In this document: positions 23,812-42,670 of the stretch, piece by piece
How the letters are laid out: each line of letters opens with the position of its first letter
How positions within the stretch are numbered: the stretch's first letter is position 1
Source: Halanaerobium saccharolyticum
Lineage (GTDB): Bacteria; Bacillota; Halanaerobiia; Halanaerobiales; Halanaerobiaceae
Direction of reading: 5' to 3'
Assembly (NCBI RefSeq): GCF_003053565.1
Contig: NZ_QAXS01000017.1
Coordinates: forward strand, 1-58,985
Length of the DNA stretch: 58,985 nucleotides
Position numbers and translations under genes: made by a program
Notes under the pieces: model-generated
What the model saw: only the letters and a program-made list of their open reading frames with translations
What the model was told of the DNA's origin: nothing
The model's database searches: none

Positions 23812-23884
23812 AAATACTTGGTAGATTTTCTTTTAAATCATTTATTAAACTCATATTATTTTTTAAAGAATGTGGAGTGAAATT

Positions 23885-25036: not shown

Positions 25037-25058
25037 TATTAAAAACACGTCCGTACAT

Positions 25059-25192
25059 CCGATAACATGGGATTGGCGTCATGCCTTCTGTCATAAAGCT
25101 TGCAGGTTAACCAATAACGGATATGAAAAAGCAAGCTTTACGCCAGTTCCTAACGGAATCAGGCACAAGCGCAAATCCCAGGGACGTTATGT
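25059..25192 (+). repeat. attC site 1 (family A)
   Basis: Left core TCCGATAAC complements the start of cassette 1; right core GTTATGT opens cassette 2. Arms GGGATTGGCG/AATCCC, GCCT/AGGC and AAGCTTGC/GCAAGCTT fold into one long interrupted hairpin. Confidence 0.88.
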
Positions 25193-25222
25193 GAAATATT
25201 ATTCTAAAAAAGGGGAGTAATT

Positions 25223-26905
25223 ATGTCTTTTAACAGTATACTTACAGTGGGATCTATAATAATTGCAATATATAGTATTATGCCTAAATATAAAAAATTG
25301 GAATTAAAAACCAAAAGCAGGAGAATAGATTTTATAATTTTCACTATTTTTATTTTAGTAGTTCACTATTTATTGTATTATAATATATTTGTAAATTTCA
25401 ATTTAAATTTGGGATTTGGATTATCGAAATATGGAGTTACACCAGCTAATTCATTATATATGTTGTTTATAATTATGTTTTTATATTTATTTTTGAGAAT
25501 AAAATATGGAGAAATACCTACCTATAAAATAGATGTTTTAAAATTAACCTTAGAAGAATTGCAATTTAAAGAAAATTATAATGAATTAATTTATTTGCTA
25601 AGTAGTAATATGAATGTATTGAGGAAAATATTAAATTTTAACATTTCTAAAAAGAAAAATAAGCTAGAAGATTTTCTTTCAGACGATTTTGAGAACTCCA
25701 AGACAAAAAACAAAAAGATAAATAAGATTAAGTCCTCTTTATTTAAAATTTTTAATGATAATAAAATCAAAAAACAAGAAAGTGTTGAAGAACTATTGAG
25801 AATACTTTTTACAGATGAAAATTTTATTAGGAATCTTATAAAAATTAAACCTTATTTTGCATTAGATTTGGTAAAATTAGAAAAAAATTATTATACAAAT
25901 AATTTCCTTGAAACATTCTTAAATTTTTGTATACTTGATCCTAAAAGTATCTTATATAAAGAATTAGACGAAACTTCTTATATAAGTACTTTAGATTATG
26001 ATCAATGTGAGAAAAAGCCAAATAATGATAATGAAATATTATTCTTTTTATTTAATGATATCAGTGTAGCAAAAGAATATGAGGTATATAGACCAATTGG
26101 TGAAGGAATTATTAGTACTCTACTTGAAATGAGGCGAACTGATAATGATAAATTCAATGAACCTTATGAAAATGAAGATGAGGAATTATTAGAAAAAAAT
26201 CCTATTGTTAAAGGAAGAAAATTTTTTGTATACATGATTTATAATTCTATTCTTCAAGAAATTGACTGGCATATGTGGTTATATTATTATTACTACTTTG
26301 TAAAAGAAATATGTATTAATTATAACCCTAATAAATATGTGAATTTAGATGACGAGTTTCCCACAAAATATAATTATATTTTATATTTATTATTTTCTGA
26401 TGTTAGGGATTGGATAAAGTCTATTGAATACTTAAATGAAGAAAACAATCATGCTAAAATTGAAATTGATCGTGTAGAACATCAAAATGATAATATAATT
26501 ATTAGTAGTATAATTTTATTAGGACGTATGCTAGCAGAACTAATAAATAATAGAAAGATCACAAAAAAATTTAAAGAATATATGTTATCTATAAGTTTTG
26601 ATTTATATTATGATTTAATTAACAAAAAAGAAAATGTTGCGAGACTTTTAATTAAAAGTATTATGCATGGTGGAACAGAATTGATGTCATTAAAAAAGAA
26701 ACATTTAGGTTTTATAATTAGATATTTAATGATGAGTAGAGATATTATTGTACGTGGAAATGGACAACCAGTTAAAATAATTGCAAAAGAATTTTTAGTT
26801 AATTTTTCATTAGATGATTTAAATACCTATGTGAATGCAGTTAGAGATAATGAAAAAATAATATTGAGATCTAGTTATTGTCAGATTGAAATAGAGGCCG
26901 AATAA
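25223..26905 (+). CDS. Cassette 2: membrane-anchored protein of unknown function
   Basis: Not recognised. 560 aa with three hydrophobic segments in the first ~95 residues (SILTVGSIIIAIYSIM, FIIFTIFILVVHYLLYY, LYMLFIIMFLYLFLRI) and a large Lys/Asn/Glu-rich cytoplasmic part that appears all-helical. AGGGGAG precedes the ATG by 8 nt. It fills its cassette alone. The layout (N-terminal membrane helices plus large soluble domain) resembles some defence and sensor proteins, but no catalytic motif is visible. Confidence 0.75.
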   Translation: MSFNSILTVGSIIIAIYSIMPKYKKLELKTKSRRIDFIIFTIFILVVHYLLYYNIFVNFNLNLGFGLSKYGVTPANSLYMLFIIMFLYLFLRIKYGEIPTYKIDVLKLTLEELQFKENYNELIYLLSSNMNVLRKILNFNISKKKNKLEDFLSDDFENSKTKNKKINKIKSSLFKIFNDNKIKKQESVEELLRILFTDENFIRNLIKIKPYFALDLVKLEKNYYTNNFLETFLNFCILDPKSILYKELDETSYISTLDYDQCEKKPNNDNEILFFLFNDISVAKEYEVYRPIGEGIISTLLEMRRTDNDKFNEPYENEDEELLEKNPIVKGRKFFVYMIYNSILQEIDWHMWLYYYYYFVKEICINYNPNKYVNLDDEFPTKYNYILYLLFSDVRDWIKSIEYLNEENNHAKIEIDRVEHQNDNIIISSIILLGRMLAELINNRKITKKFKEYMLSISFDLYYDLINKKENVARLLIKSIMHGGTELMSLKKKHLGFIIRYLMMSRDIIVRGNGQPVKIIAKEFLVNFSLDDLNTYVNAVRDNEKIILRSSYCQIEIEAE

Positions 26906-26908
26906 TAC

Positions 26909-27044
26909 TTCACATAACATGGGATTGGCGTCATACCTTCTGTCATAAAGCTTGCAACTTAACCAATTACGGATATGAAAACGCAAGCTTTACGCCAGTT
27001 CCTGACGGAATCAGGCACGAGCGCAAATCCCAGGGACGTTAGAC
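26909..27044 (+). repeat. attC site 2 (family A)
   Basis: Left core TTCACATAAC complements the start of cassette 2 (GTTATGTGAA); right core GTTAGAC opens cassette 3. The two cores of this site do not match each other, showing that it is a hybrid of two cassettes. Confidence 0.9.
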
Positions 27045-27066
27045 GACATAGAATTGGAGGCATATT

Positions 27067-28512
27067 ATGAATAAATGTAACAATAATATTAATTTAAAAA
27101 GAGGAGTTAAAAGATACTATTTGCCAATAAACTTTAATTTAAATGTTAATTTTTTTGTATTAAACTCACATATTAAAACAATAAAGGAATTACCTAACAT
27201 AAAAAGTGAATCGGAAGGGTTAGATTATTTATCTAAAGATATAAAAAAATATATATTAATAGAAATTGAATCACCATTATATGAAATTGATTCAGTTATA
27301 GAAATATCTAGGTATGTCAGACCACGTTTGTTAATCATACTTAGTGTATTAAGTTTTTTAACAGAATATCCATTTACTTCATATGAAATTTTAAGTACAG
27401 AAGCTGAAAAATTATGTGAAGGAGATAGAGTTGCTGAAATTGAAAATGTTAAAGTAATGAATTTTGAATTTGATGGTAAAAATTTAAATAATGATGCTGA
27501 AATATTGTTAGAAAAAGTCTCTTCCAAAAATAAATCAACAAAAAGGCTAGTGTCATCATTATTAGATAGATGGAGAAAGGCCTTATATTTGTTAAAAGAA
27601 ACAGAAGAGAGAAGTTATTTACACGATGATGAAGCTTTATTGTCTTTTTTTCATATATTAGAGCTTCTTTCAACAGAGTATCAAAAACAATTGAAATTTG
27701 AGGTTAATAAAAAGATAGAAAAAGTGTTTAATGATATATTAGAAAATATGTTTAATTTATATGGTGATCATTTATTACAGGAAAAAAACAAAAATATAAA
27801 TTATTTTAATGATGCTTTATTGGGAAATAATTTATCTGTTTATACTAAAATATGTTATATGTTAGATAATCTTAATTTGCTAGATAAAAAGGTGCAAAAT
27901 TTAGTGAAGATATTAATCAAATCAAGAAATAAAGTTGCTCATGGACGACAAGTTTATCAAGATAAAGTTATATGGCCTTTACCTCCCTTTTTTCCTCTCA
28001 CTGATATTGATTTTTCATATATACAGGTTATAAAAACATTAACAGCTAGAACAATATCAATGGAACTTGGATTAGGCATTTGGGAAAATAGGTGGAATAA
28101 AATACATAATGAACTGTATTCTAGTGTTGAAGAAGTTCGTTCTTTCATAAAAAATAAAGATTATATGAAAATTTCTGAGGATGAATTTTTCCAAGAAGAT
28201 AATAAAGAAATATCTCTCGCAGCTATTACTGAATATTATATAAAAGGAAAATTAAATTACATTGATATAAAAAAATCATTAAATAATGTAATTAAAAAAA
28301 TCAATTTAAATAATCAAAATATAAATGAATTAGCGATTTTAACAATATTTTTTGCTGATGATAAAGATAATGAATTAGCAAGAAAATCAAAAAAAATTAT
28401 AAAGAAATGTAGTAAGGATATAAATTATAAAGAAATATTGATGTGGCTAGAATATGAAGGTTTAAAACCTAATTGGTTAAGAAAGTGGATAATGAATGGT
28501 AGTAAAATATGA
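27067..28512 (+). CDS. Cassette 3: HEPN-motif protein (Apea-like), putative RNase
   Basis: 481 aa, AT-rich, largely helical. The HEPN signature R-x4-H is seen in KSRNKVAHGRQ near residue 288, preceded by a helix ending VKILI, as in Apea-like and abortive-infection HEPN proteins. The N-terminal ~200 residues look like the extra domain often found before the Apea-like HEPN. HEPN proteins with this motif are usually metal-independent RNases used in defence or toxin roles (family knowledge). RBS TTGGAGG before ATG. Sole gene of its cassette; no antitoxin partner seen. Confidence 0.7.
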   Translation: MNKCNNNINLKRGVKRYYLPINFNLNVNFFVLNSHIKTIKELPNIKSESEGLDYLSKDIKKYILIEIESPLYEIDSVIEISRYVRPRLLIILSVLSFLTEYPFTSYEILSTEAEKLCEGDRVAEIENVKVMNFEFDGKNLNNDAEILLEKVSSKNKSTKRLVSSLLDRWRKALYLLKETEERSYLHDDEALLSFFHILELLSTEYQKQLKFEVNKKIEKVFNDILENMFNLYGDHLLQEKNKNINYFNDALLGNNLSVYTKICYMLDNLNLLDKKVQNLVKILIKSRNKVAHGRQVYQDKVIWPLPPFFPLTDIDFSYIQVIKTLTARTISMELGLGIWENRWNKIHNELYSSVEEVRSFIKNKDYMKISEDEFFQEDNKEISLAAITEYYIKGKLNYIDIKKSLNNVIKKINLNNQNINELAILTIFFADDKDNELARKSKKIIKKCSKDINYKEILMWLEYEGLKPNWLRKWIMNGSKI

Positions 28513-28520
28513 AATTCTAC

Positions 28521-28655
28521 GTCGTCTAACATGGGATTGGCGTCATGCCTTCTGTCATAAAGCTTGCAGATTACCCAATCATGGATACGAAAAAGCAAGC
28601 TTTACGCCAGTTCCTGCGGAATCAGGCACGAGCGCAAATCCCAGTAACGTTATGT
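28521..28655 (+). repeat. attC site 3 (family A)
   Basis: Left core GTCGTCTAAC complements the start of cassette 3 (GTTAGACGAC); right core GTTATGT. Same hairpin arms as site 1. Confidence 0.88.
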
Positions 28656-28978
28656 GCAATAATAATTGAACATCAGCAAATAAGAGAAAGAGATAAAAGA
28701 AGGGTTGGGGCATCGCTAACTGAGATGTATTAACTCCTGCAAATGAAGAGAATATTAACTGTTAGGTTTCTGTGGTTTTAACAATATACTTGGGCAATTA
28801 TAATTTACAAATTTTTTTACATATATCTGAAGGCAAATTAGTCACTGTTAGATCTTCACGCACTTCGTGAAGATTTAATATAGTACAGAATTTATGAACT
28901 TTTTTGCTGGTTAAGAGTTAATATCAGCATTTAGTAAGTTGAAGTAGTGAGTAACTTTTTACGCAGCAAATTATTACA
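28656..28978 (+). ncRNA. Cassette 4: ORF-less cassette, candidate structured RNA, subtype a copy 1
   Basis: No ORF with a start and ribosome binding site fills this 330-nt cassette. It is nearly identical over its length to cassette 6, with small indels that would break any shared frame. Shared core AGGGTTGGGGCATCGC at 28701-28716, flanked by a short stem, and a perfect 9-bp hairpin ATCTTCACG/CGTGAAGAT at 28852-28874. The core and the TTAACAAT..ACTTGGGC block also align with cassettes 5 and 10. Function unknown; no Rfam family recognised. Confidence 0.5.
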
Positions 28979-29164
28979 GCACATAACAAGAGCATTGACG
29001 CTACTGGGTATAAAATTTAACATTAAAACGTCCGTGCCCTTCGGGACATGGCTTTTGTCACATCTCTTGCAGCTGTTTAAGCTGAAAATGCAGAGGAAAG
29101 GCAAGAGATGCGCCAACCTTAAAGAGCAAGGACAGCCACGTCGTCAATTCTCAGGACGTTATCT
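28979..29164 (+). repeat. attC site 4 (family C, 186 nt)
   Basis: Left core GCACATAAC complements the start of cassette 4; right core GTTATCT. Longer than the other families, with an apical hairpin GTCCGTGCCC/GGGACATGGC near 29030-29052. Partner of site 6. Confidence 0.8.
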
Positions 29165-29459
29165 GACATTATAGCAAAAGTTACTGCAGCTAATAAGACC
29201 AAGAGAAAGGGTTTGGTTATCGCATGATGATATTTTTATACTCTCTCCGGGGTAGGGAAATAGAAACTGCCAGGTATTAACGAACCTGAGTGCATTAATG
29301 GAGAGCATGATCAATTTTATGATAGGTTACAGCATTATCTTCAAAACTTCCGACTGATGGTTAAGGTTTTTTGCGGGCAGACCGTTGCAAAAAAGTGGAT
29401 ATATGTCCGGAGTTTTGAAGATAAATGAGAAGTAATAGAGTCGATGTTGCTATAACAGA
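29165..29459 (+). ncRNA. Cassette 5: ORF-less cassette, candidate structured RNA, subtype b copy 1
   Basis: No convincing ORF on either strand. Begins CAGCTAATAAGA, then core AGGGTTTGGTTATCGC (29208-29223) closed by GAGAAAG/CTCTCTC, hairpin CAGGT/ACCTG with TTAACGA loop, and a long terminal hairpin (29337-29422) whose closing stem ATCTTCAAAACT/AGTTTTGAAGAT holds an inner TTTTTTGC/GCAAAAAA stem. Cassette 10 is the second copy; its closing stem GAGAAAG/CTTTCTC is better paired, a possible compensating change. Confidence 0.5.
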
Positions 29460-29588
29460 CAGATAACATGGGATTAGCGGCATGCCCTCTGGCACAAAGT
29501 TAGCACTTAAACAATTGTGGATATGATAGCTAACTTTGCGCCAGGTCTGTGGACACCGGGCACACCGCGAATCCCAGTATCGTTATAT
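29460..29588 (+). repeat. attC site 5 (family B)
   Basis: Left core CAGATAAC complements the start of cassette 5 (GTTATCTG); right core GTTATAT. Arms GGGATTAGCGGC/GCGAATCCC and AAAGTTAGC/GCTAACTTT. Partner of site 10. Confidence 0.85.
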
Positions 29589-29914
29589 GCAATAATAACT
29601 GAACATCGGCAAAGAAGAGAAAAAGATAAAAGGAGGGTTGGGGCATCGCTAACTGGCATGAACTAACTCCTGCAAATGAAGAAAATAGTAATTGATAGAT
29701 TTCTGTGGTTTTAACAATAGACCTGGGCGATTATAATTTACAAAATTATTTACATATATCAGAAGGTAAATTAGTCACTGTAATTTATCTTCACGCACTT
29801 CGTGAAGATTTAATATAGTACAGAATTCATGAACTTATCTGCTGGTTAAGGAAGAATAGTGATATTTCATTAAGTTGAAGCAGAGATAAACTTTTTACGC
29901 GGCAAGTTATTACA
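29589..29914 (+). ncRNA. Cassette 6: ORF-less cassette, candidate structured RNA, subtype a copy 2
   Basis: Second copy of the cassette 4 sequence, with scattered substitutions and indels. Core AGGGTTGGGGCATCGC at 29634-29649; the flanking stem is AGGAG/CTCCT here, fully paired. The 9-bp hairpin is at 29787-29809. It carries the same attC family as cassette 4, so whole cassettes were duplicated. Confidence 0.5.
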
Positions 29915-30097
29915 GCATATAACAGACCATTGGCGCTACTGGGTATAAAATTGAGCAGCAAGACATCCGTGCCCTTCGGGACATGGCTTTTGTCACATCT
30001 CTTGCAGCAGCTTAAGCTAAAAATGCGAATTAATGGCAAGAGATGTGCCAACCTAAAGAGCAGGACAGCCACGTCGCAAATGCTCGTAACGTTATAT
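29915..30097 (+). repeat. attC site 6 (family C)
   Basis: Left core GCATATAAC complements the start of cassette 6 (GTTATATGC); right core GTTATAT opens cassette 7. Same apical CCGTGCCC/GGGACATGG hairpin as site 4. Confidence 0.8.
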
Positions 30098-30150
30098 GAA
30101 ATGGTGCGCTGAAATAATAAATTAATATAATTAAAAGGGAGACAACCTAT

Positions 30151-30327
30151 ATGTTAAAAAAAAATAGTATTATAAGTTTTATGTTAGGAGTCTTAAGTTA
30201 TTTTGTGATATCTACAGTTTTAGAAAAGTTTGGTGTTGAAAGAGACTTTATTATTGAGTTTATTATAATTAGTATAATATTATTGAGTTATTTAGTAATA
30301 AAGTATAAAAAAAGTAATGATAAATAA
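30151..30327 (+). CDS. Cassette 7: small two-span membrane protein (58 aa)
   Basis: Too short to be obvious but well placed: AAAGGGAG precedes the ATG by ~9 nt and it is the only frame in its cassette. Two hydrophobic segments (IISFMLGVLSYFVIS and FIIEFIIISIILLSYLVI) joined by a short charged turn, with a basic C-terminus (KYKKSNDK). Resembles small toxins or holin-like proteins in size only; function unknown. The stretch from 30328 to 30455 holds nothing recognisable. Confidence 0.55.
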   Translation: MLKKNSIISFMLGVLSYFVISTVLEKFGVERDFIIEFIIISIILLSYLVIKYKKSNDK

Positions 30328-30455
30328 ATAAGTCTGTATTAGTATTGGTAAATAGAAGTTTATCCTATAGTAAGGTTATGAAATCAATTAAATAGAAATA
30401 AAAGAAATTCATAATAATTAAATTATGGTTTATAAACGTGGGATAGCGCTCCACA

Positions 30456-30569
30456 TCATATAACAATATATTGCCGACTCCGCTCCTACGTCACTTCGTC
30501 CAAATCCATCAGACCAAGATAGGAGCTATCTAAGGTCTGATGGACTTCGGCAATACGGTTACGTTATGT
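30456..30569 (+). repeat. attC site 7 (family D)
   Basis: Left core TCATATAAC complements the start of cassette 7; right core GTTATGT. Arms ATATTGCCG/CGGCAATA and CCATCAGACC/GGTCTGATGG. Partner of site 12. Confidence 0.85.
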
Positions 30570-30635
30570 GAAATATTAAAACTTAGATTATTAAAAACTT
30601 ATTTAAGGGAGTTTTATTAAGAGAGGGAAATAATA

Positions 30636-31103
30636 ATGAAAAACCAATTAATATTTGCCCCGAACAAACAATACAAAGTGGAGTTAGAATTAGTTGATAT
30701 GTATCAACCAAAACTCATGCCAAGCAAAGCAGATAATTTTATACCTTATTATAAAATATCAGTAAATCAAAAGAGGATTAGTAATAGATACTTTTCTAGT
30801 AATTATAAATGGTCTTTATGTTCAAGATATTTTATTATTGAAGAATGGTTTACAAATAATTCAAGTAATAATGAACTTATAAATGCTTTAGAAAATATAA
30901 TTGTAAAACTAACTATTTTTGATTTAAATAATAATATGAATGGGTTAGTTGCAACAAACAAAAATGGAAGAATAATACCGAAAGAAATAAACGAAAAACA
31001 AATAATATATATTAAAGATAATAAAGGACTTTATCGAGAATTGGAAGTAAATTTGGTCGATATTAATTGGAAGAAAGATAATGATTTAAAAGGTGAGTTT
31101 TAA
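30636..31103 (+). CDS. Cassette 8: hypothetical protein (155 aa)
   Basis: No family recognised. Soluble, beta-rich looking and tryptophan-containing (YKWSLCSRYFIIEEWF); a short motif VKLTIFDLNNN in the middle. No membrane segment or signal. GAGAGGGA precedes the ATG. Only gene in its cassette, so its expression depends on an internal or upstream cassette promoter. Confidence 0.65.
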   Translation: MKNQLIFAPNKQYKVELELVDMYQPKLMPSKADNFIPYYKISVNQKRISNRYFSSNYKWSLCSRYFIIEEWFTNNSSNNELINALENIIVKLTIFDLNNNMNGLVATNKNGRIIPKEINEKQIIYIKDNKGLYRELEVNLVDINWKKDNDLKGEF

Positions 31104-31107
31104 TACA

Positions 31108-31212
31108 TCACATAACATGGGATTTAAGATTCCACTACGTTCCATCCAAATTCATTCACCAAGCGCGTCGCGCTAAGGTTCATGAACTTCTTAAATCCCT
31201 GATACGTTATGT
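31108..31212 (+). repeat. attC site 8 (family E)
   Basis: Left core TCACATAAC complements the start of cassette 8; right core GTTATGT. Arms GGGATTTAAGA/TCTTAAATCCC and a TTCAT-containing stem with apical AGCGCG/CGCGCT. Shortest site in the array (105 nt). Confidence 0.85.
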
Positions 31213-31298
31213 GACATACTTCTTGATTAGCATCTGCCTTATATTAATTATACAAGTCTTCTATAATATTATATGAAAAAATTGAGAAAGGTGATAAT

Positions 31299-33056
31299 AT
31301 GATAATAAGTCAAGTGAAACTTAAAGGATTTAGAAATTTTAAAAATGAAACAATTAACTTCAATCAAAAATCTTTAATTATGGGAGCTAATGATGTTGGA
31401 AAATCAAATTTATTACATGCTTTGAGAATTTTGTTAGATAAAAGTTTTTCAGAAGTTGATATAGAACCAAAGGACAGCGATTTTTATGCTTATGAAGAAA
31501 CTAATGAATTGTCTATTTTAATAAAATTTGAAGAAGTTAAAGAAGAATGTGTTATCTCTAAGATGAAAGGTTATATAAGTGATAATGATATACTATACTT
31601 AAAATATAAGGCTACAAGAGACCCAGAAACAAACGCAAAAAGTTATGAGTTTTATGCTGGACATAAGGAAAATGAAATGGAAGAATTAAGAGAACGATTT
31701 TATCGTCGTTTTTTGCATTTGAAATATATTAGCAGTAATAGAGATTTATTTTCATATATTAGCAGAGAAAAAAAATATCTACTACAAGAAGCTAAAGAAA
31801 AAAGAGTAGAATCAGAAATAAGTCAAGATAATAGAAAATTAAATGAGATAGAAGGCAGCCTTGATCAAGTTAATAACCAAGTTACAAATTTATCTTTTAT
31901 TAAAAAAGCTACTACTAGTATAAATGAAGAACTAGAGGATTTAGCTTTTCATCATGAAAATCAACAAATTATATTTGATGTTGGAGCTTCCAATGTATCT
32001 CATTTTGTAGATAATATTAAATTATCTTCTAAAGCTAATGGGAAAAGTCTGACAATTGGTGGAGATGGTCGTAATAATCAAATATTTTTAGCATTATGGG
32101 CAGCTAAAAATGAGATAAAAGAATCTAATCCTCTTGAAGTTGTAATTTATTGTATTGAAGAACCTGAAGCTCATCTCCATCCTCACCAGCAAAGAAAATT
32201 AGCTAGATATCTTTATAATACTTTGAATGGACAAGTTATAATAACTACACATTCACCACAGATTACTTCTGAATTTTCTCCTAATTCAATAATAAGATTA
32301 TATGAAGATAATTTAAAGACTATGGCTGCAAATAAAGGATGTGGAAGAAAAATAAATGAAGCATTTGAGGAATTCGGTCATAGAATGAGTATTATACCAG
32401 CTGAAGCATTTTTTGCAGATTTAGTTTTTTTAGTAGAAGGAAAATCAGAAGTTATATTTTATAAAACGTTGGCAAAAGAATTAAATATAGACTTAGACCG
32501 TTTGAATATCAGTATATTAATGGTTGATGGAATAGGTTTTAAAAATTATATTAATATTTTAAATGCATTAAACATAGAATGGTTAGTTAGAACAGATAAC
32601 GATATTTTTAAAATCAAAAATAAAAATAGATATAGATTTGCCGGAATTAAAAGAGCATTAGGGATATACGATGATTTTTGTAAACAAGATGAAGTTATTG
32701 AGAGTTTAAAAGAAAAAGAAATAGAATTAATAAATTGTTTTAAGACTAAAAACCCACCTGATGAAAGTGTTGAATCGGCAACTAGATTTATTGATCAACT
32801 AAAAAAATATGAAATATTTTTAGCAGAAACTGATTTAGAAAATGATTTGTTAGTCAGTGAAATAAAAGATGAAATAATGGATTTCTTAGAAACTAGTGAT
32901 GTAACTGATGCATTGAAAAAAATGCAAGATAAAAAAGCAACTTTTATGTTTGATTTCTTGTTAAGAAATAGCGATTGTTTATCAAAATTAGAAAATAATG
33001 ATATTGCCAAACCATTATACTGTTCTAAGAAAATTATTAAAGGTGAATTAAAATGA
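31299..33056 (+). CDS. gajA: Cassette 9: Gabija GajA-like OLD family ATP-dependent endonuclease
   Basis: Class 2 OLD nuclease: ABC-type ATPase plus TOPRIM nuclease. Walker A GANDVGKSN near residues 29-37, ABC Walker B YCIEEPEAHLHPHQ near 286-298 and H-loop TTHSPQ, then the TOPRIM metal site LVEGKSE near 378 and the RTDND acidic pair near 432. GajA nicks DNA at specific sites when NTP levels fall during phage infection (established for Bacillus cereus GajA). 585 aa against ~578 aa for the type protein. AGAAAGGTG precedes the ATG. Overlaps the helicase gene by 4 nt (ATGA), the standard two-gene Gabija layout. Confidence 0.9.
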   Translation: MIISQVKLKGFRNFKNETINFNQKSLIMGANDVGKSNLLHALRILLDKSFSEVDIEPKDSDFYAYEETNELSILIKFEEVKEECVISKMKGYISDNDILYLKYKATRDPETNAKSYEFYAGHKENEMEELRERFYRRFLHLKYISSNRDLFSYISREKKYLLQEAKEKRVESEISQDNRKLNEIEGSLDQVNNQVTNLSFIKKATTSINEELEDLAFHHENQQIIFDVGASNVSHFVDNIKLSSKANGKSLTIGGDGRNNQIFLALWAAKNEIKESNPLEVVIYCIEEPEAHLHPHQQRKLARYLYNTLNGQVIITTHSPQITSEFSPNSIIRLYEDNLKTMAANKGCGRKINEAFEEFGHRMSIIPAEAFFADLVFLVEGKSEVIFYKTLAKELNIDLDRLNISILMVDGIGFKNYINILNALNIEWLVRTDNDIFKIKNKNRYRFAGIKRALGIYDDFCKQDEVIESLKEKEIELINCFKTKNPPDESVESATRFIDQLKKYEIFLAETDLENDLLVSEIKDEIMDFLETSDVTDALKKMQDKKATFMFDFLLRNSDCLSKLENNDIAKPLYCSKKIIKGELK

Positions 33057-34678
33057 TTACTCCTACTAAACAACAAAAAGAAATAATAAATGAAAAAAAT
33101 AATATAGTTGTAATTGCAAAACCCGGAAGTGGAAAAACTTATGTTCTATCAAAAAAAATACGTAAAATTCTTCCTGAAGGTTTAGATTATAAAGGTGTTA
33201 TTGCAATATCTTACACTAATAAAGCAAGTGATGAATTAAAAAACAGATGTTTAAAAGATGGTTTGGATAAGAAAGCTTCTTTTTTTGGAACAATACATAA
33301 TTTTTTACTTGTTGAAATTATTATACCTTTTGGAAAACAAATTTTTGGACTTCCTAATTCGGAAATAAAAGTAGATAAACAACTAGATGAATTATATTGG
33401 ATAACAGACTTAAATTATAAGGATTTGACAAAAGATAAAATAGATTGTTTAAAAAATTTATTTATTGAAGGTTTAATTGGGCTGGAAAGTATAGGTTTGC
33501 TAGCTTTGTATATTTATGATAATTCACTTGCTTGTCGAAACTATTTAAAAGCTAGGTATACTCATATTATTATCGATGAATATCAAGATTCTAGTCTTGA
33601 GCAACACCTTATGTTTCTTAGATTGAAAGACTTAGGTTTAAAAGCTATTGCGGTTGGAGATATAGATCAATCTATTTATGCTTATTCTGGTAAAAAATCT
33701 AAATATCTAGAATCTTTAGCTAGTGAGGAGGGGGGTAATGATGACTTTGAGTTCTATCCATTAACAGTAAATCATCGTTGTCATCCTTCAATAGTTAATT
33801 ATTCTGCTCGTTTATTAAATAAGAAAGCAAAATTAATAACTTGTGAAGATGTAAGAGTGTTTGACAAAAAAATAATTGGATTAGAATCTAATATAGCTGA
33901 CTGGTTGAGTGTAGCAATTCCTTATTTTTCTAAAAAATTTGATATAGATAATAATAAGAAATTTGCAGTTTTAGTTAGAAGTAATAGAACGGGGAAAATA
34001 ATAGATAATTCATTAGTTTTAGAACATAAATTTTTTACTACTACAGATCTGGATAAAGATATAAATCGATGGTCAATAATTTTTAGAAGATTATTATATG
34101 TTTTATTTGATGATAGTAAAACAAAAATAGGAATGCTTGAAGATTTTATTGATTTTACAAAACAAAAAAATAAATTACAAAAGTTAATTGATCTAATGAA
34201 AAAATTAGAAGAATTAGTTTCTGATATTAGCAGTAATTTTAAATTTTTAGTAGATTATTTTATAAAAATTGCTGAAATTATTTATCCGAATAATAAGTGT
34301 GAAAAATCAATTAGTCTTATAAAAGAAACTTTAAAAGACCCTAAATCATTAGATGTTTTTAAACCAGCTAAGGAAAGTGAAGTTCAGATTATGACTATAC
34401 ACAAATCTAAAGGGTTGGAATTTGATGTCGTGTTTCATTTAGACTTATATGAATGGATTTTACCATCAAAAAGAATCAAAAAAGGGGAAAAGTATTATCC
34501 TAATCCTAAACAGGATATTAATTTACATTATGTTGGAATAACTCGTGCACGAAAAGCTTCTATACTATGTACAAGTACTAAAAGACATAATTATAAAAAT
34601 GATATTAAAAACGGTAATCCATCTGAGTTTTTTAAATATAACAAATTGTATGAACTAAGAAATACTGTAGATATTTAA
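33053..34678 (+). CDS. gajB: Cassette 9: Gabija GajB-like UvrD/PcrA superfamily helicase
   Basis: SF1A helicase partner of GajA. Walker A AKPGSGKT near residues 22-29, SYTNKASDEL, motif II DEYQDSS near 176, GDIDQSIYAYSG, HRCHP, the MTIHKSKGLEFDVVF block near 448 and YVGITRARK near 497. GajB of B. cereus senses DNA ends and hydrolyses nucleotides to activate GajA (family knowledge). 541 aa, somewhat longer than the ~494 aa type protein. Start ATG overlaps the GajA stop, so translation is coupled. The two genes share one cassette. Confidence 0.9.
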   Translation: MITPTKQQKEIINEKNNIVVIAKPGSGKTYVLSKKIRKILPEGLDYKGVIAISYTNKASDELKNRCLKDGLDKKASFFGTIHNFLLVEIIIPFGKQIFGLPNSEIKVDKQLDELYWITDLNYKDLTKDKIDCLKNLFIEGLIGLESIGLLALYIYDNSLACRNYLKARYTHIIIDEYQDSSLEQHLMFLRLKDLGLKAIAVGDIDQSIYAYSGKKSKYLESLASEEGGNDDFEFYPLTVNHRCHPSIVNYSARLLNKKAKLITCEDVRVFDKKIIGLESNIADWLSVAIPYFSKKFDIDNNKKFAVLVRSNRTGKIIDNSLVLEHKFFTTTDLDKDINRWSIIFRRLLYVLFDDSKTKIGMLEDFIDFTKQKNKLQKLIDLMKKLEELVSDISSNFKFLVDYFIKIAEIIYPNNKCEKSISLIKETLKDPKSLDVFKPAKESEVQIMTIHKSKGLEFDVVFHLDLYEWILPSKRIKKGEKYYPNPKQDINLHYVGITRARKASILCTSTKRHNYKNDIKNGNPSEFFKYNKLYELRNTVDI

Positions 34679-34707
34679 AATACAATATATTTTTAGAAAC
34701 GAAGTAC

Positions 34708-34841
34708 GTCACATAACATGGGATTGGCGCCATGCCTTCTGTCATAAAGCTTGCAATATTAGATAGCAACAAATATTAAAGCAAGCTTTACGCCAGTTCC
34801 TGCGGAACCAGGCACGAGCGCAAATCCCAGGAACGTTATCT
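34708..34841 (+). repeat. attC site 9 (family A)
   Basis: Left core GTCACATAAC complements the start of cassette 9 (GTTATGTGAC); right core GTTATCT. Same arms as sites 1-3 with a different loop. Confidence 0.88.
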
Positions 34842-35134
34842 GACATTATGACAATGTCACTGCAGCTAATAAGACCGAGAGAAAGGGTTTGGTCATCGCT
34901 GGATGAAGTGATTATACTTTCTCCGGGGAAAGTAAATAGAAACTGCAGGGTATTAACGAACCTGGGTGCGTAAATGGAGAACATGATCAATTTTATGATA
35001 GGTTACAGCATCATCTTCAAAACTTCCGACTAATGGTTAAGTTTTTTGCGGGAAGACCGTTGCAAAAAAGAGGATAGAGGTTCGGAGTTTTGAAGATAAA
35101 TGAGAAGTAATAGAGTCGATATTGTCATAACAGA
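34842..35134 (+). ncRNA. Cassette 10: ORF-less cassette, candidate structured RNA, subtype b copy 2
   Basis: Second copy of the cassette 5 sequence 5.7 kb downstream. Core AGGGTTTGGTCATCGC at 34884-34899 between GAGAAAG and CTTTCTC, the CAGGGT/ACCTG hairpin with TTAACGA, and the long hairpin closed by ATCTTCAAAACT/AGTTTTGAAGAT. A minus-strand frame is open in both copies but has many replacement differences and no ribosome binding site. Confidence 0.5.
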
Positions 35135-35263
35135 CAGATAACATGGGATTAACGGCATGCCCTCTGGCAAAAAGTTAGCACTTGACCAATTGCGGATATG
35201 ATTGCTAACTTTTCACCAGGTCTGTTGACATCGGGCACACCGCGAATCCCAGTATCGTTATGC
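35135..35263 (+). repeat. attC site 10 (family B)
   Basis: Left core CAGATAAC complements the start of cassette 10; right core GTTATGC opens cassette 11. Near-copy of site 5. Confidence 0.85.
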
Positions 35264-35302
35264 GAAATACAAACAAAACTACAGTTAAGTGAGGGATACT
35301 TA

Positions 35303-36454
35303 ATGAATGAAGAAAAGCATATATTAGGAAAAGGTTATTTCTCTATAGTCTTTTTAAAAAATGATAATGGTAGCAAGTATGCAGTAAAAAAACTTAAAAG
35401 AAAATTTTTAAAAAATAGAGAGTATACCCACAGATTCAAGAGGGAATATGAAATAATGAAAGATTTTAATGAGTCTTGTTATACAGTGTCAGTATACAAT
35501 TTTAATGAAGAAGAATATTCTTTTGAAATGGAGTTAGCTGATTGTACTTTAGAAGAATATATTAAAGAAAAAAATGATGAAATTTCTTTATCTAAAAAAG
35601 AAGAATTATGTGAAAAGGTAATTCTTGGAATGAAAGAATTACATAATAATACAATACATCGTGATTTGAGTTATAACAACATTCTTATGTTTAATGACAA
35701 TCCAAAACTAGCTGATTTTGGATTAGGTAAAGATTTGACTCAAATTTATTCTTACGAAACTAAATTTGAAAAACAAGTTGGAACTGCACATTTCGCGGAT
35801 CCTATACAATTGGATAATATTCAAAATGCAAATATTCAAACAGAAATATATTCTTTAGGAAAAATTATAGATTATATTTTTAGCGGAAGTATTGCAAGTA
35901 TAGAACATAAATATTCAAGTATTGTAGATAATGCAACGAATAAAAATTTAGATAGAAGATACAAAGATATTTCTGAATTGTATAATGCATACAAAGAATT
36001 AAAAAATTCTAGTTATTCATTTGAGCCATCTGAAGAGCTAGAAAAAATGTATAAAGAAAATGATATTTCTACGGAAAAAATGTATAGTTTATTAATTCGA
36101 AAAGACGCAGGTAATACTATGCTAGAATTAATATTAAGTAATAGAAGAATAGCATATGAATTACTGGAAATTTTTAGTGTTCAATATAATCATGAATTAG
36201 AGCTTTTATTAGAAAAGTTATTTGAGAAAATAAAAAATAAAAAGTTAAGTTTTCCTGATTACGATGAATTTGGATATATTGCAATAGATTTATTAAAAGA
36301 AATAAATAATAATCCATCAGCATGTAAGGTATTAGCAAATATTGTTAATTATTGTGCTTATAATGTGGGAAGATTTAATATTCAAAGATTGATTAATGAA
36401 AATGAAGATAATAAAAATATTCCCTACAAAATAAGAATAGAATGGATTGAATAA
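35303..36454 (+). CDS. Cassette 11: Hanks-type serine/threonine protein kinase
   Basis: Kinase domain: glycine loop GKGYFSIVF (near residues 8-16), ATP Lys in YAVKKL, catalytic loop HRDLSYNN near 119-126, metal-binding ADFGLG near 136-141 and activation-segment VGTAHFADP. Residues ~240-383 are a helical C-terminal domain without recognised family, instead of the usual membrane-PASTA tail of housekeeping PknB, so it is a soluble cassette-borne kinase. Related stand-alone kinases act in abortive infection (Stk2), but this is inference. Start ATG 35303 after GAGGGA; the frame upstream of it lies in the attC site. Confidence 0.85.
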   Translation: MNEEKHILGKGYFSIVFLKNDNGSKYAVKKLKRKFLKNREYTHRFKREYEIMKDFNESCYTVSVYNFNEEEYSFEMELADCTLEEYIKEKNDEISLSKKEELCEKVILGMKELHNNTIHRDLSYNNILMFNDNPKLADFGLGKDLTQIYSYETKFEKQVGTAHFADPIQLDNIQNANIQTEIYSLGKIIDYIFSGSIASIEHKYSSIVDNATNKNLDRRYKDISELYNAYKELKNSSYSFEPSEELEKMYKENDISTEKMYSLLIRKDAGNTMLELILSNRRIAYELLEIFSVQYNHELELLLEKLFEKIKNKKLSFPDYDEFGYIAIDLLKEINNNPSACKVLANIVNYCAYNVGRFNIQRLINENEDNKNIPYKIRIEWIE

Positions 36455-36483
36455 GAATATTATTAATAAAAAATAGTTTGTAC

Positions 36484-36619
36484 TTCGCATAACATGGGAT
36501 TGGCGTCATGCCTTCTGTCATAAAGCTTGCAGGTTAACCAATCACGAATACGAAAAAGCAAGCTTTACGCCAGTTCCTGGCGGAACCAGGCACGAGCGCA
36601 AATCCCAGGGACGTTATCG
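36484..36619 (+). repeat. attC site 11 (family A)
   Basis: Left core TTCGCATAAC complements the start of cassette 11 (GTTATGCGAA); right core GTTATCG. Same arms as sites 1-3. Confidence 0.9.
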
Positions 36620-36737
36620 GAAAGATGAGGCGAAAAAATTGAAAATCTAAAAAACAAAAAAATATTGCAGACACATCTTTAGTATTTTATTAATCATAAA
36701 TTTTAGAAAAAAATACTTTATTCAAGGGGGTAATTAA

Positions 36738-37103
36738 ATGAGTCAAATTATAAGAAGTGATATAAATGAGAAATGGGCACATTCTGGAATTGTTGAAGCT
36801 GGTGACTTTGTTTTCATAAATTATTGTGTAGGAAATATAGGACAGTCTATTGAAAATCAAATAAATGGTGCGTTTGATCATTTGAATAGCCGATTAGAGT
36901 CAATTGGTTTGACATTAGAATCAGTAGTAAAAATTGATTGTATGTTTAGGGATATTTGGGATATACCTGTAATGGAAAAAATTATAAAAGAAAAATTCCA
37001 GGGTGAATATCCAGCTAGAAAATCAATACAAACAGAGTTTGCTCATCGTGGCGGACAGGAAGGGCTTTTATTTCAACTTGATGCTATCGCGTTTAAAGGA
37101 TAG
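36738..37103 (+). CDS. Cassette 12: RidA/YjgF/UK114 family protein
   Basis: RidA-like fold: VEAGDFVFINYCVGN near residue 20, NQINGAFDHLNSRLESIGL and the signature region YPARKSIQTEF near 97, whose Arg is the residue that binds the imine/carboxylate in active RidA. 121 aa is typical. Classical members hydrolyse reactive enamines/imines from PLP enzymes; members of the wider family bind other small molecules, so activity here is uncertain. RBS AAGGGGG before ATG. Shares its cassette with a second small gene 41 nt downstream. Confidence 0.85.
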   Translation: MSQIIRSDINEKWAHSGIVEAGDFVFINYCVGNIGQSIENQINGAFDHLNSRLESIGLTLESVVKIDCMFRDIWDIPVMEKIIKEKFQGEYPARKSIQTEFAHRGGQEGLLFQLDAIAFKG

Positions 37104-37144
37104 TTGTTAAGTAATATCTATATTATAAGAAAAGGTGAAAAATT

Positions 37145-37531
37145 ATGGATAGTGATTTTCTTAAAGAACATATTTTGAATTTAGAAAAAAGTTTATTAAA
37201 GCCGGAAGTACGTCTATCTGCAGAAAAGGTTTCTGGATTATTATCTGACGAATTTACTGAGTATTGTAGTTCAGGAAAAATATATAAATATAAAAAAGGT
37301 GATGTTATTAATAGTAAAGACAATAGTGATGTTCAGATCTGGAAAATTAAAGATTTTTCAATTGATATTTTGGCAGAAGATATAATATTGGCAAAATATA
37401 AGGCAATAAAAAATAACAAGCTAGAAGATAAAAAAATATGTTCTATTCGTAGTTCAATATGGAAATATATAGAGGGAAGTTGGAAAATGATTTTTCATCA
37501 AGGGACATTAACAAATCAGAAGATTACATAG
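37145..37531 (+). CDS. Cassette 12: SnoaL/NTF2-like protein (DUF4440 type)
   Basis: Cone-shaped NTF2-like domain suggested by the opening helix LKEHILNLEKSLLKPEVR, followed by LLSDEFTEYCSSGKIY, VQIWKIKDFSI and the C-terminal strands SSIWKYIEGSWKMIFHQGT, which are characteristic of DUF4440 proteins. 128 aa. Often annotated as ligand-binding or small enzyme; function unknown. AAAAGGTG precedes the ATG. Second gene of a two-gene cassette with the RidA-like protein. Confidence 0.78.
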   Translation: MDSDFLKEHILNLEKSLLKPEVRLSAEKVSGLLSDEFTEYCSSGKIYKYKKGDVINSKDNSDVQIWKIKDFSIDILAEDIILAKYKAIKNNKLEDKKICSIRSSIWKYIEGSWKMIFHQGTLTNQKIT

Positions 37532-37587
37532 ACTCTAGGATTAAAAGATCATTATTATATTGCAGTTTAACGGGGAAACCTCATCCA

Positions 37588-37695
37588 TCCGATAACAAAA
37601 TATTGCCGGTTTCGCTATTGCCTCATCCAAATCTATCAGACTAAGATAAGAGCTACCTAAGTCTGATAAACTTCGGCAATACGAATACGTTATCT
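37588..37695 (+). repeat. attC site 12 (family D)
   Basis: Left core TCCGATAAC complements the start of cassette 12 (GTTATCGGA); right core GTTATCT. Same ATATTGCCG/CGGCAATA arms as site 7. Confidence 0.85.
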
Positions 37696-37721
37696 GACAT
37701 TTGCCGATTAGTAGATTACGA

Positions 37722-37759
37722 AACAAAAAACCTCCTGATATATTAATTCAGAAGGTTTA
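37722..37759 (-). terminator. Terminator of the doc toxin-antitoxin operon
   Basis: On the minus strand AAACCTTCTGA pairs with TCAGGAGGTTT and is followed by TTTG. It ends the minus-strand operon inside cassette 13. Confidence 0.75.
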
Positions 37760-38155
37760 TCAATTTATAAATTTTGTGTTATTTTTAAGCCATAATGTTA
37801 GTTCTTTTTTTGATAACTGACCAGAAGATACCTGGATCATCATTTTATAGGCTTCTTTCTCAGAAGATGTAATTTCTAGACCATTTTTTTGCAAAAAAGT
37901 ATCCATAGCTACAAAAGCTATTCTTTTATTTCCATCAATAAATGGATGGTTATTACAAAGATGATAGCCATAAGCTGCTGCCATTTTTAGCAGTGAATCA
38001 TGTAAATATTCACCCTGATAAGTTGCTTTAGGCTGTTCAAGAGCTGAATCTAATAAATTTTCATCTCTAATATCAAAACTACCACCATAAATTTTAACAA
38101 GTTGTTCGTGGAAAAAAAGAATTATATCTTTAGGAATAAATTTAATGTCATTCAT
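37760..38155 (-). CDS. doc: Cassette 13: Doc-type (Fic fold) toxin
   Basis: Death-on-curing toxin; Doc phosphorylates elongation factor Tu in the P1 phage system. The Fic motif reads HPFIDGNKRIAF near residues 73-84 (HxFx(D/E)GNxR with Lys before Arg as in Doc), and the N-terminal LYGG-type region is KIYGGSFDIRDENLLDSAL. 131 aa is typical. It overlaps the antitoxin gene by 4 nt (ATGA). The operon is on the minus strand, against the array, and has its own terminator and presumably promoter. Confidence 0.9.
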   Translation of the reverse strand: MNDIKFIPKDIILFFHEQLVKIYGGSFDIRDENLLDSALEQPKATYQGEYLHDSLLKMAAAYGYHLCNNHPFIDGNKRIAFVAMDTFLQKNGLEITSSEKEAYKMMIQVSSGQLSKKELTLWLKNNTKFIN

Positions 38156-38382
38156 TTAGCCAATTCCTTAAGAGCATCTTTATATTTTTGATTAGTTCGA
38201 TCAAAAGCTTTAGCCCATTCTTCAAATTCAGGATCAAAAGGAGTTAACTTAAATCCATCTTCAGTTTCAATAACATGAAGTTCTTCTCCTTCTTTAAGAT
38301 TATATTTTTCTTTAAGTTCTTTAGGAATTGTAAAGCCATAACTGTTACCAACTTTTCTTAATTTTATAGTTTTCATAGTCAT
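38152..38382 (-). CDS. Cassette 13: AbrB/MazE-type antitoxin
   Basis: 76 aa. Residues 1-50 form an AbrB/SpoVT swapped-hairpin DNA-binding domain (IKLRKVGNSYGFTIPKEL, then YNLKEGEELHV). The C-terminal ~25 residues (EFEEWAKAFDRTNQKYK) are the expected toxin-neutralising tail. It precedes doc in the operon, so it should repress its own promoter. GAGGTGAATGACT before the ATG fits a start at 38382. Its tail resembles the start of the protein at 39794-40210. Confidence 0.85.
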   Translation of the reverse strand: MTMKTIKLRKVGNSYGFTIPKELKEKYNLKEGEELHVIETEDGFKLTPFDPEFEEWAKAFDRTNQKYKDALKELAK

Positions 38383-38485
38383 TCACCTCAACTATATTAT
38401 AACATTTGTATTACTATAAAAGCAAGCAGGAAAATTAAAGAGAATAAGTAATTATATTAAGGGAAGATCAAAAGAAGTAAACGAA

Positions 38486-38618
38486 CAGATAACATGAGAT
38501 TGGCGTCATGCCCTCTGTCATAAAGCTTGCAAGCTAACCAATAACGGATATAAAAAAGCAAGCTTTACGCCAGTTCCTGCGGAATCAGGCACGAGCCCAA
38601 ATCCCAGAGACGTTATGT
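38486..38618 (+). repeat. attC site 13 (family A)
   Basis: Left core CAGATAAC complements the start of cassette 13 (GTTATCTG); right core GTTATGT. Arms GAGATTGGCG/AATCCC. Confidence 0.88.
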
Positions 38619-38658
38619 GAAATAATGACTATGTTATTATTTTCTAGGAGGAATAAAT

Positions 38659-39180
38659 ATGTCAAACAAATTATTATTAATTGAACCATCTTATGAATAT
38701 AAAGATAAGTTTCTAAAAGCTGTAAAAGATTACAAAAATGCAAATGAAAATGTTCACTATAATTTATATAAACCTGCTTTAGAAAATTTTAAACAATTTG
38801 TTAATGATCTACAAGATCATGCAAAAGGAAAAAACCTACCAAAGGGATGGCGACGATATTCAACTTACTGGCTAATCACTAGTAAAACTCAAGAGATAAT
38901 AGGAATTATTAGAATAAGAAACAAGCCATTAAAAATATATGGACATATAGGATATGATGTACCTCCATCATATCGAGGTAATGGTTATGGAACAAAATTA
39001 TTAAAATTAAGTTTAGAAAAAGCAAAACAAATGAATATTAAAAAATTAATGGTAACATGTGATGAAGACAATATTGGATCCATAAAAATAATAGAAAAAA
39101 ATAGTGGTAAATTTGTTGACAAAGTATTTGATAAAGAAGATCAAGTTTATGTAAATAGATATAAAATAAATATTGAATAA
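38659..39180 (+). CDS. Cassette 14: GNAT family N-acetyltransferase
   Basis: 173 aa. Acetyl-CoA-binding motif A is seen as VPPSYRGNGYGTKLLKLSLEKA near residues 106-127 (RGNGYG is the Q/RxxGxG/A element), followed by CDEDNIGSIKIIEKNSG. N-terminal region has YHALYK-like and GWRRYSTYWL strands. Resembles the GNATs annotated for small amine or aminoglycoside substrates; substrate unknown. AGGAGG precedes the ATG by 8 nt. Sole gene of its cassette. Confidence 0.88.
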   Translation: MSNKLLLIEPSYEYKDKFLKAVKDYKNANENVHYNLYKPALENFKQFVNDLQDHAKGKNLPKGWRRYSTYWLITSKTQEIIGIIRIRNKPLKIYGHIGYDVPPSYRGNGYGTKLLKLSLEKAKQMNIKKLMVTCDEDNIGSIKIIEKNSGKFVDKVFDKEDQVYVNRYKINIE

Positions 39181-39208
39181 AATAATTTGTATATGAAGAT
39201 GCCATTAC

Positions 39209-39369
39209 TTCACATAACAGAGAGTTCTCGTAACGCCAAAGAGCGGGCTACCCTACGTGATATGCTCTCTGTCACAAAGTTTACAATTAATAAGGTAAGT
39301 AATTTTGAGGCAAACTTTCTGCCAGGTCCTACGGACCCGAGCACGATGGGAACCCTAGGAATATTATAT
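39209..39369 (+). repeat. attC site 14 (family F, degenerate right core)
   Basis: Left core TTCACATAAC complements the start of cassette 14 (GTTATGTGAA). The right core reads ATTATAT instead of GTTATAT, so the essential G is lost. Arms GAGAGTTCTCGT..AAGAGCG and AAAGTTT/AAACTTT. Longest non-C site. Confidence 0.7.
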
Positions 39370-39443
39370 GAAACCGTAGCAAACGCTTTAATAACTAAAA
39401 ATTTAAAACACAAAAAAACAGTGCCGTTGAACCTTCAGCACTG

Positions 39444-39722
39444 TTATTTAAATCTAATTTCAAGTTTTTTACCAATTGCATGAGCAACTTTATCAAGAAA
39501 TTCAACACCCGGATTATAACCATCATTTTCTAGTCTGGAGATAGCAGACTGTTTAGTTCCTATTTTTTCTGCTAATTCTTTTTGAGATAAATTATTTTCG
39601 ATTCTATACCTAATTATCTGCTTTTTTATTTCATACATAACATTCAGCTTTTCATATTTTTCTTTAACTTCTTCAGATTCAAAAAGTTCGTTCTTAAGAT
39701 CTTTGTGATCCATAAAGTCCAT
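39444..39722 (-). CDS. Cassette 15: XRE-family helix-turn-helix protein, probable antitoxin
   Basis: 92 aa with a C-terminal HTH: NNLSQKELAEKIGTKQSAISRLEN near residues 43-66, then GVEFLDKVAHAIGKKL, as in HigA-type antitoxins of RelE/HigB systems. The N-terminal ~35 residues are charged and helical. GAGGTG precedes the ATG. No toxin gene is adjacent in the usual place, so it is an orphan or a solitary regulator. On the minus strand within cassette 15. Confidence 0.82.
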   Translation of the reverse strand: MDFMDHKDLKNELFESEEVKEKYEKLNVMYEIKKQIIRYRIENNLSQKELAEKIGTKQSAISRLENDGYNPGVEFLDKVAHAIGKKLEIRFK

Positions 39723-39793
39723 TTTGTTTCACCTCACTTGCTAAAATTAAATCTATTTATATTACATAAAATTGATATATAATTTAACTGAAA

Positions 39794-40210
39794 TTACTTC
39801 TCGAGTTCTTTTCTAATTTTTTTGATCAATTTATCATGAGAAGTACCAACCTTACTATCTTTACTTTCGTTTTCAGCTTTCTCTAGTTCTCGGTATAATT
39901 CTAAAAGTTCTTCTTTTTTCTCATCATTTATTAGATTATACAATCTATCACTCTCACGATCTTTTCTAACTAATTCAACAGGATCTAATATTTCTTTAGG
40001 ATCATTTGTTTTTTCATTATTTTGTTCAATTTCAGCTAATATCTTTTTCCTTAAATATTTTCTAAGTTCTTTTTTATCCGGGACTGTCTCATCTTCAAAA
40101 ATACCATATAAGTTTTCAGTATCACCCTCAGGACTGGCCAGTCTTTTTAAAGCTTGATGATATTTTTGTTCTGTTCGTAAAAATGATTTTAACCATTTTT
40201 TAAATTTCAT
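39794..40210 (-). CDS. Cassette 15: charged protein, probable PIN-type antitoxin relative
   Basis: 138 aa, highly charged and helical. Starts FKKWLKSFLRTEQKYHQAL, like the tail of the AbrB antitoxin at 38152, and contains ILDPVELVRKDRESDRLYN near residue 86. A fragment at 43184-43236 reads EEILDPVKLVREDRER and directly precedes a VapC-like PIN start, so this protein most likely belongs to the antitoxin of a PIN-toxin pair whose toxin is missing here. Start at 40210 is set by GGTGAT 6-8 nt upstream; an ATG at 40216 is also possible. Confidence 0.6.
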   Translation of the reverse strand: MKFKKWLKSFLRTEQKYHQALKRLASPEGDTENLYGIFEDETVPDKKELRKYLRKKILAEIEQNNEKTNDPKEILDPVELVRKDRESDRLYNLINDEKKEELLELYRELEKAENESKDSKVGTSHDKLIKKIRKELEK

Positions 40211-40328
40211 TTTCATCACCTATAAATATTATACTATTTGTATTATTTATAAAGCAAGTAAACATTATATTTTCAGACATTTAATTAACCAAAAATAAAG
40301 AACATCCCTCAAGGAAGGATAAAGACTT

Positions 40329-41231: not shown

Positions 41232-41272
41232 ACTGAATTTTATTATTAAAGATAAAAAAATTGAGGGATAAT

Positions 41273-42016: not shown

Positions 42017-42028
42017 AGCTGTGCTACA

Positions 42029-42160
42029 GCGTATACATGAGATTGGCGTCATGCCTTCTGTCACAAAGCTTGCAATAATAACTGCAAGAAATTTGGAAGG
42101 CAAGCTTTCCGCCAGTTCATACGGAACCAGGCACGAGCGCAAATCCCAGTAACGTTATAC
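42029..42160 (+). repeat. attC site 15 (family A, degenerate left core)
   Basis: Left core GCGTATAC has lost one A of ATAAC and does not match the expected start of its cassette; right core GTTATAC is intact. Arms GAGATTGGCG/AATCCC and AAGCTTGC/GCAAGCTT. Confidence 0.75.
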
Positions 42161-42650: not shown

Positions 42651-42670
42651 ATTTTAGGGAGCTTAAGTTG

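Follow-up and report, generated by a model that had tools for sequence, protein, structure and literature searches.

A complete Gabija gene pair in Halanaerobium saccharolyticum as the likely content of a single cassette in an integron-like array whose recombinase lacks I2

Defence systems carried by integrons are described as streamlined, and systems of more than two genes as absent from them, in the available passages of PMC12409362. Excerpts of PMC7790495 present the I2 region of the integron integrase IntI as a requirement of cassette capture that no other protein has. Integrons have been searched for with a profile of the IntI additional domain (as in sections of PMC8352920), and a survey of Firmicutes counted, according to portions of PMC9024848, a single complete integron and a few orphan arrays (CALIN). 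Halophiles have been mined for integrons (PMC7923331, from whose main text “Halanaerob” is absent). Here we describe an attC array holding the two genes of a Gabija defence system, gajA and gajB, on contig NZ_QAXS01000017.1 of Halanaerobium saccharolyticum; the window analysed was the whole contig (58,985 bases). In the open-licence text of PubMed Central, we found no report of an attC integron in Halanaerobia (papers naming both integrons and Halanaerobium were off topic by title and start of abstract), no on-topic paper for attC sites of Bacillota or for attC sites and integron integrases of Clostridia and, judged by title and start of abstract, no paper on a Gabija integron cassette.

The features of the locus are listed in Table 1. 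They suggest, with a probability that we put at roughly 0.7, that the Gabija pair makes up one cassette in a chromosomal Halanaerobium integron, run by an I2-less recombinase that would act on folded attC sites. More generally, our best reading is an integron lineage that would recombine folded attC without I2 and would carry full-size defence systems.

Table 1. Coordinates of the features discussed in the text (positions in the window)
Feature	Position	Strand	Basis
XerA/IntI-like tyrosine recombinase, 361 aa, presumed integrase, without IntI-specific stretch	22638..23723	+	profiles, motif spacing, tree
Extra N-terminal domain of recombinase, weakly HARP-like	22638..22835	+	Pfam, AlphaFold model
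attI-like site; junction G23804|TT matches R″ box of first cassette	23760..23818	+	end matching
15 attC sites and a 16th, cut off	25057..43083 (end approximate)	+	helix scans, covariance models
attC of preceding cassette; left border G31206|TT	31107..31215	+	attC-like site
Gabija gene cassette, 3,629 bp, G|TT to G|TT	31207..34835	+	matching ends GTTATGTGAC; no internal attC
Cassette leader with ribosome-binding-like AAAGGTG	31207..31298	+	sequence
gajA: OLD-family ATPase with TOPRIM nuclease domain, 585 aa	31299..33056	+	PADLOC, Pfam, PDB match
gajB: UvrD-like helicase, 541 aa	33053..34678	+	PADLOC, Pfam, PDB match
attC of Gabija cassette; right border G34835|TT	34708..34844	+	attC-like site
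Stk2-like protein kinase, second defence-like cassette gene (cassette 35258–36613)	35294..36454	+	PADLOC

The presence of a complete, full-length Gabija pair, an OLD-TOPRIM nuclease with a UvrD-like helicase as proposed by a reader of the sequence alone, was confirmed by comparison with profiles and structures. The PADLOC search suggested as a check matched both genes nearly end to end, GajA best to PDLC00066 (759 bits) and GajB best to PDLC00123 (630 bits). Pfam placed AAA_15 and OLD-like TOPRIM domains in GajA, and the N- and C-terminal UvrD helicase domains in GajB; the pair thus combines the two parts that define Gabija, an AAA ATPase with an OLD-like TOPRIM and an adjacent UvrD-like GajB. 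The closest solved structures by sequence were those of Gabija GajA (E 4.3e-38) and Gabija GajB (E 1.2e-29), and the window proteins are not shortened relative to these chains (578 and 499 aa). As in known Gabija systems, the two genes overlap, here by the ATGA that had also been noted beforehand; the difference is that the window pair forms a single integron cassette with its own attC. Residues E380, D433, D435 and D512 of the window GajA aligned, counted by hand, with E379, D432, D434 and D511 of the PDB GajA, four positions that we take to be catalytic. GajA would be expected to cut phage DNA, aided by GajB, as in Bacillus Gabija.

Integron cassettes enter as circles, and the 5′ end of a cassette should match the R″ box of its own attC at the 3′ end. 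Both ends of the Gabija cassette read GTTATGTGAC, a match of 6 nt past GTTA and one base longer than that between its start and the end of its left neighbour. Because its own match beats the neighbour's by one base only, the proof that it is a cassette rests on the whole cassette set. In 15 of the 16 cassettes in the window, the start was the reverse complement of the cassette's own R″ box for at least four bases past GTTA (the match is 9 nt for the first cassette), the sole exception being 39364–42154. Summed over 15 cassettes, the end match was 67 (computed with the first-cassette junction displaced by one base) versus 23.6 on average when the ends were permuted between cassettes, and none of 100,000 permutations reached 67. 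Pairing the two halves of one attC gave a sum of only 20.

Covariance models, partly built from the two flanking attC sites themselves, detected both sites and none between them (whole window, complete lists at E ≤ 0.01), and gajA and gajB are the sole genes of the cassette, which has attC on either side and self-matching ends. The sequence-only reading, which had placed the pair between two intact core sites as one cassette, was therefore borne out, except that it ended the cassette 6 bp too far, at 34841. It had also called the size remarkable. A length of 3,629 bp is indeed unusual, and the cassette is the largest end-linked one in the window, but it is less extreme than claimed: the median length of 118 end-linked cassettes from this integron family is 1,019 bp, and four of them, the Gabija cassette included, reach at least 3,629 bp (the three longer ones may span missed attC sites).

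The closest GajA relatives found were 41–45% identical and came from two other genomes of the phylum sample, in other families, and from plasmids of other bacteria. Relatives in the other 37 genomes of the order (E ≤ 1e-15) were at most 30% identical, and on the basis of this difference the pair probably came from outside the order. These distant GajA relatives within the order were also the nearest matches when the pair was sought at the same locus without attC in close relatives, a finding that would have spoken against a mobile cassette. The two GajA loci nearest in the phylum sample (L141 and L142, about 4 kb or less per side) contained no attC candidates, and a search of viral contigs with GajA found no relative. 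A deletion or fusion could in principle have put gajA and gajB between two attC sites, and the size of the cassette would suit such an event; as the cassette's own ends match, and as its closer relatives lie outside the order, we consider this highly improbable.

The recombinase at the head of the array lacks the approximately 37-residue IntI-specific stretch that holds the I2 helix. The IntI model TIGR02249 matched it in two pieces (2–187 and 231–315) with 195.7 bits, below the cut-off of 265, whereas it passed the XerA family model (230.7 versus 220 bits) and had 4a8e and 5hxy as its best PDB matches by sequence. The spacing from KGxKDR to HxLRH was 106–108 residues in all seven IntI, 65–72 in the window enzyme and 39 relatives, and 65–90 in other Xer-like rows. 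An IntI with the additional domain, as canonical integrons have, was absent: no protein exceeded the curated TIGR02249 cut-off in the 38 genomes of the order, this Halanaerobium included, and one did so in two of 398 genomes sampled from the phylum. The recombinase was 87–91% identical to those of named Halanaerobium relatives. A maximum-likelihood tree of 50 rows (partial recombinases G307 and G288 left out) placed the seven IntI in one branch (support 97/96) and the Halanaerobium enzymes in a separate branch of 24 same-phylum rows (99/95), itself nested in a larger branch that also takes in Bacteroidota and short relatives (95/90); the branching order between groups was not firmly resolved, and two outgroup rows were long-branched.

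Several lines of evidence link this recombinase to the arrays. The window array is co-directional, its first cassette starts at 23805, and the attI-like junction lies about 80 bp downstream of the recombinase, which by sequence corresponds to the canonical placement of attI next to the integrase gene. Across 17 loci tested, a junction matching the R″ box of an early cassette was located 59–279 nt after the recombinase in 15 (9 nt in 14 loci, 8 nt in L038) and was not found in L107 and L109; the attI flank TTCGCAAA was common to several Halanaerobium loci. Linked cassettes or attI accompanied 15 of the 26 full-length extended recombinase loci, and an array or attI was present in 14 of the 20 whose downstream sequence extended for 2.5 kb or more; linked ends were nearly absent from shuffled sequence. 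Many relatives of the recombinase across the phylum adjoin attC arrays, and a relative on a Chryseobacterium (Bacteroidota) plasmid, 42.0% identical over 98% of the protein, also lies beside one. Within the order, attC arrays (at least three matches to model R1 or R2, best E < 1e-10) occurred in 12 of the 15 recombinase-bearing genomes (E ≤ 1e-40) versus five of the 23 others (Fisher p 0.0007), a comparison in which close relatives are favoured, as R1 and R2 were partly built from the same genomes.

These counts bear on whether the locus is an orphan array, in which a standard IntI, since lost or acting from elsewhere, collected the cassettes, and the recombinase beside them would be Xer-like and unrelated. 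The window genome resembles CALIN in having no IntI with the additional domain, the enzyme passes the XerA model, and several genomes have arrays without an intact recombinase. Unlike CALIN, however, the window array has a linked recombinase and an attI-like site. The absence of IntI above the cut-off throughout the order, the junction that closely follows the recombinase at 15 of 17 loci and attC sites without the two extrahelical bases that IntI is known to use make an orphan array unlikely.

The structure of attC was assessed on 150 end-linked sites from 20 stretches chosen for holding linked sites, with arms aligned and strands fixed (L041, L096, L106 and L109, with one or two links each, were left out). 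The 18 control sites all came from one I2-bearing genome, G342; the G159 contig and a class 1 plasmid gave no linked sites. The sites fold into hairpins like canonical attC. The canonical mark, a pair of single-base bulges on the ″ arm, was present in one of the 150 sites versus 14 of the 18 control sites (p 4.8e-16, an overstatement as sites within an array are related), so that the extrahelical-base pair of canonical attC is missing. The other arm was bulged in 57 of the 150 sites, a 1x1 mismatch occurred in 98, and pairing was perfect in 30. In 22 short attC, 97.2% of cells paired and 16 of 26 pairs had changed on both sides (shuffled mean 13.0, reached by seven of 500 shuffles), with a covariation score of 0.526 (shuffled, 0.198; slid, 0.107 at most); further pair types alone showed no rise in number (23 versus 26.8). 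A solitary attC-like site was also seen far from the array (G000:C1:66663-66767, E 1.4e-11).

The bottom strand was the more stable one in 138 of the 150 sites versus four of 18 in the control, and the bottom strand averaged 2.97 G.T pairs and the top 0.59 (control, 0.83 and 1.72, respectively). One locus, L097, ran opposite, with the bottom strand favoured in only two of six sites. If the recombinase acted Xer-like on double-stranded attC, the hairpins would be mere inverted binding sites, which would suit an enzyme without the I2 region and with a motif spacing comparable to that of Xer-like rows. A strand preference would be needless for double-stranded use, however, and the stem distant from the core boxes also covaries (helix 4, both-side changes in seven of eight pairs); we therefore regard this as unlikely, slightly more so than the orphan array. 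For the preferred reading, recombination of folded attC, strand choice must have another basis, because I2 and the canonical extrahelical-base pair are both missing. It could be written in wobble pairs, as G.T pairs that give better folding of the bottom strand are one of the two likeliest candidates; the other is recognition of the hairpin by an extra N-terminal domain of the recombinase.

This further domain of about 66 residues precedes the usual core in the extended recombinases. HARP (PF07443) was its only or best Pfam match in seven of 10 relatives (E 0.001–0.016). An AlphaFold model of the recombinase with five near-identical rows was poor (mean predicted local distance difference test score, pLDDT, 44.2) and usable only for about residues 1–60. 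Its confident part resembled the N-terminal domain of archaeal XPB (Z 5.4, 2.1 Å over 54) and HARP (Z 3.8, 2.2 Å over 48). HARP and XPB domains bind unusual DNA structures, and recognition of the attC hairpin by this domain is an attractive but unproven idea.

Taken together, the platform looks like a variant integron, because it lacks I2 and the extrahelical-base pair and shows the remaining features that sequence can test; we call it integron-like and do not class it as a canonical integron. Neither the departure of the neighbouring integrase from a standard IntI nor the missing extrahelical bases had figured in the sequence-only reading. With Vibrio-type sedentary chromosomal integrons the locus shares attI, a self-matching cassette array and attC hairpins with R boxes and an unpaired spacer. 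It differs in an integrase without the I2 region and with an extra N-terminal domain, in attC without paired extrahelical bases, and in a defence cassette that is not streamlined, in contrast to those in the available parts of PMC12409362. XerA, XerC and XerD share with the window enzyme its model and structure matches, but the window enzyme has the extra domain and heads attC arrays.

A number of observations weigh against this interpretation. Six of the 20 full-length loci with 2.5 kb or more of downstream sequence showed neither array nor attI, no recombinase was matched at 1e-40 in five of the 17 array-bearing genomes of the order, and in G014 the recombinase beside a large array contains stops. 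The I2-bearing control is a single genome, and at least one single ″ arm bulge was present in 25 of the 150 sites. Every HARP match stayed below the 25-bit gathering cut-off of Pfam, and unrelated proteins reached Z 5.1–5.3 against the same weak model. In G022, the array adjoins a recombinase copy without the N-terminal domain, so this domain is not needed everywhere. On the side of the cargo, K541 of GajA had no clear counterpart in the alignment with the PDB GajA, and no sigma-70-like promoter was found on the + strand of the leader.

If the locus is nevertheless an integron, its recombinase would capture and excise circular cassettes through cleavage of the folded attC bottom strand at G|TT and its joining to attI. 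The evidence leaves evenly balanced the broader proposal of a separate Bacillota/Bacteroidota lineage, in which an I2-less integrase would use folded single-stranded attC with strand choice written in G.T pairs, a HARP-like domain would possibly recognise the hairpin, and full-size two-gene defence systems (Gabija, PD-Lambda-5) would move unseen by integron finders. Such a lineage would do without the I2 helix, which is regarded as the innovation that enabled integrons to arise. Searches with additional-domain profiles would miss such integrons because they require the IntI-specific domain. I2-less recombinases could explain Firmicutes attC arrays without IntI, and those that bear arrays offer a natural test of how single-strand recombination arose. 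Should the enzyme work, the necessity of I2 as stated in the excerpts of PMC7790495 would need a limit. The Gabija and PD-Lambda-5 cassettes, complete full-size two-gene systems as single cassettes, run against the streamlined trend in the passages of PMC12409362.

The PD-Lambda-5 example came from relatives, in which 30 of 97 array genes were run through PADLOC, largest first with few exceptions. At E ≤ 1e-10, nine of the 30 had a match among the defence models; these nine include a reverse transcriptase, which may be that of a group II intron. A cassette of G012 with linked ends (L039:2414-5051, 2,638 bp) carries both PD-Lambda-5 genes, A (529 bits) and B (420 bits), and an OLD/GajA-like gene lies in a neighbouring cassette (L039:718-2271). 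Similar SoFic-like Fic genes occurred in arrays of two different genomes (L049:7336-8421, 401 bits; L046:3558-4643, 403 bits), which may reflect cassette exchange.

The window array was mapped with looser helix scans, as the strict scan returned two sites per strand; Rfam gave no match over 22400–43400. Among 14 window genes run through PADLOC, GajA, GajB and the kinase of Table 1 were matched, and weakly a Fic protein. At 37760–38382, a Doc/Fic toxin gene on the – strand runs opposite to the array; upstream of it is a short AbrB-like partner (class assigned by eye). The end-matching exception, 39364–42154, contains several genes on both strands and is probably more than one former cassette.

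Two cassette bodies recurred. A gene-less body of about 330 bp (28650–28977 and 29583–29913, longest ATG frame 21–25 aa) was also found in Halanaerobium arrays at L038:4630-4955, L040:3908-4235 and L040:4793-5123 and in several L049 copies, the 10 copies compared averaging 86% column identity and sharing a fixed hairpin, ATCTTCACGCACTTCGTGAAGAT. In both L038 and L040, a copy takes the first position behind attI. As RNA the body folded no better than shuffles (z -0.82); it may represent a promoter or small-RNA cassette. A second, gene-poor cassette (29159–29457 and 34836–35132, copies 89% identical, longest ATG frame 49 aa) directly follows the Gabija cassette with its latter copy and has relatives in L040 and L049. 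The last cassette (42155–43083) has matching ends and two genes (42336–42650 and 42668–42994) that by eye look like a RelBE-type toxin-antitoxin pair; its attC is truncated at about 43083, where the array therefore appears to be interrupted.

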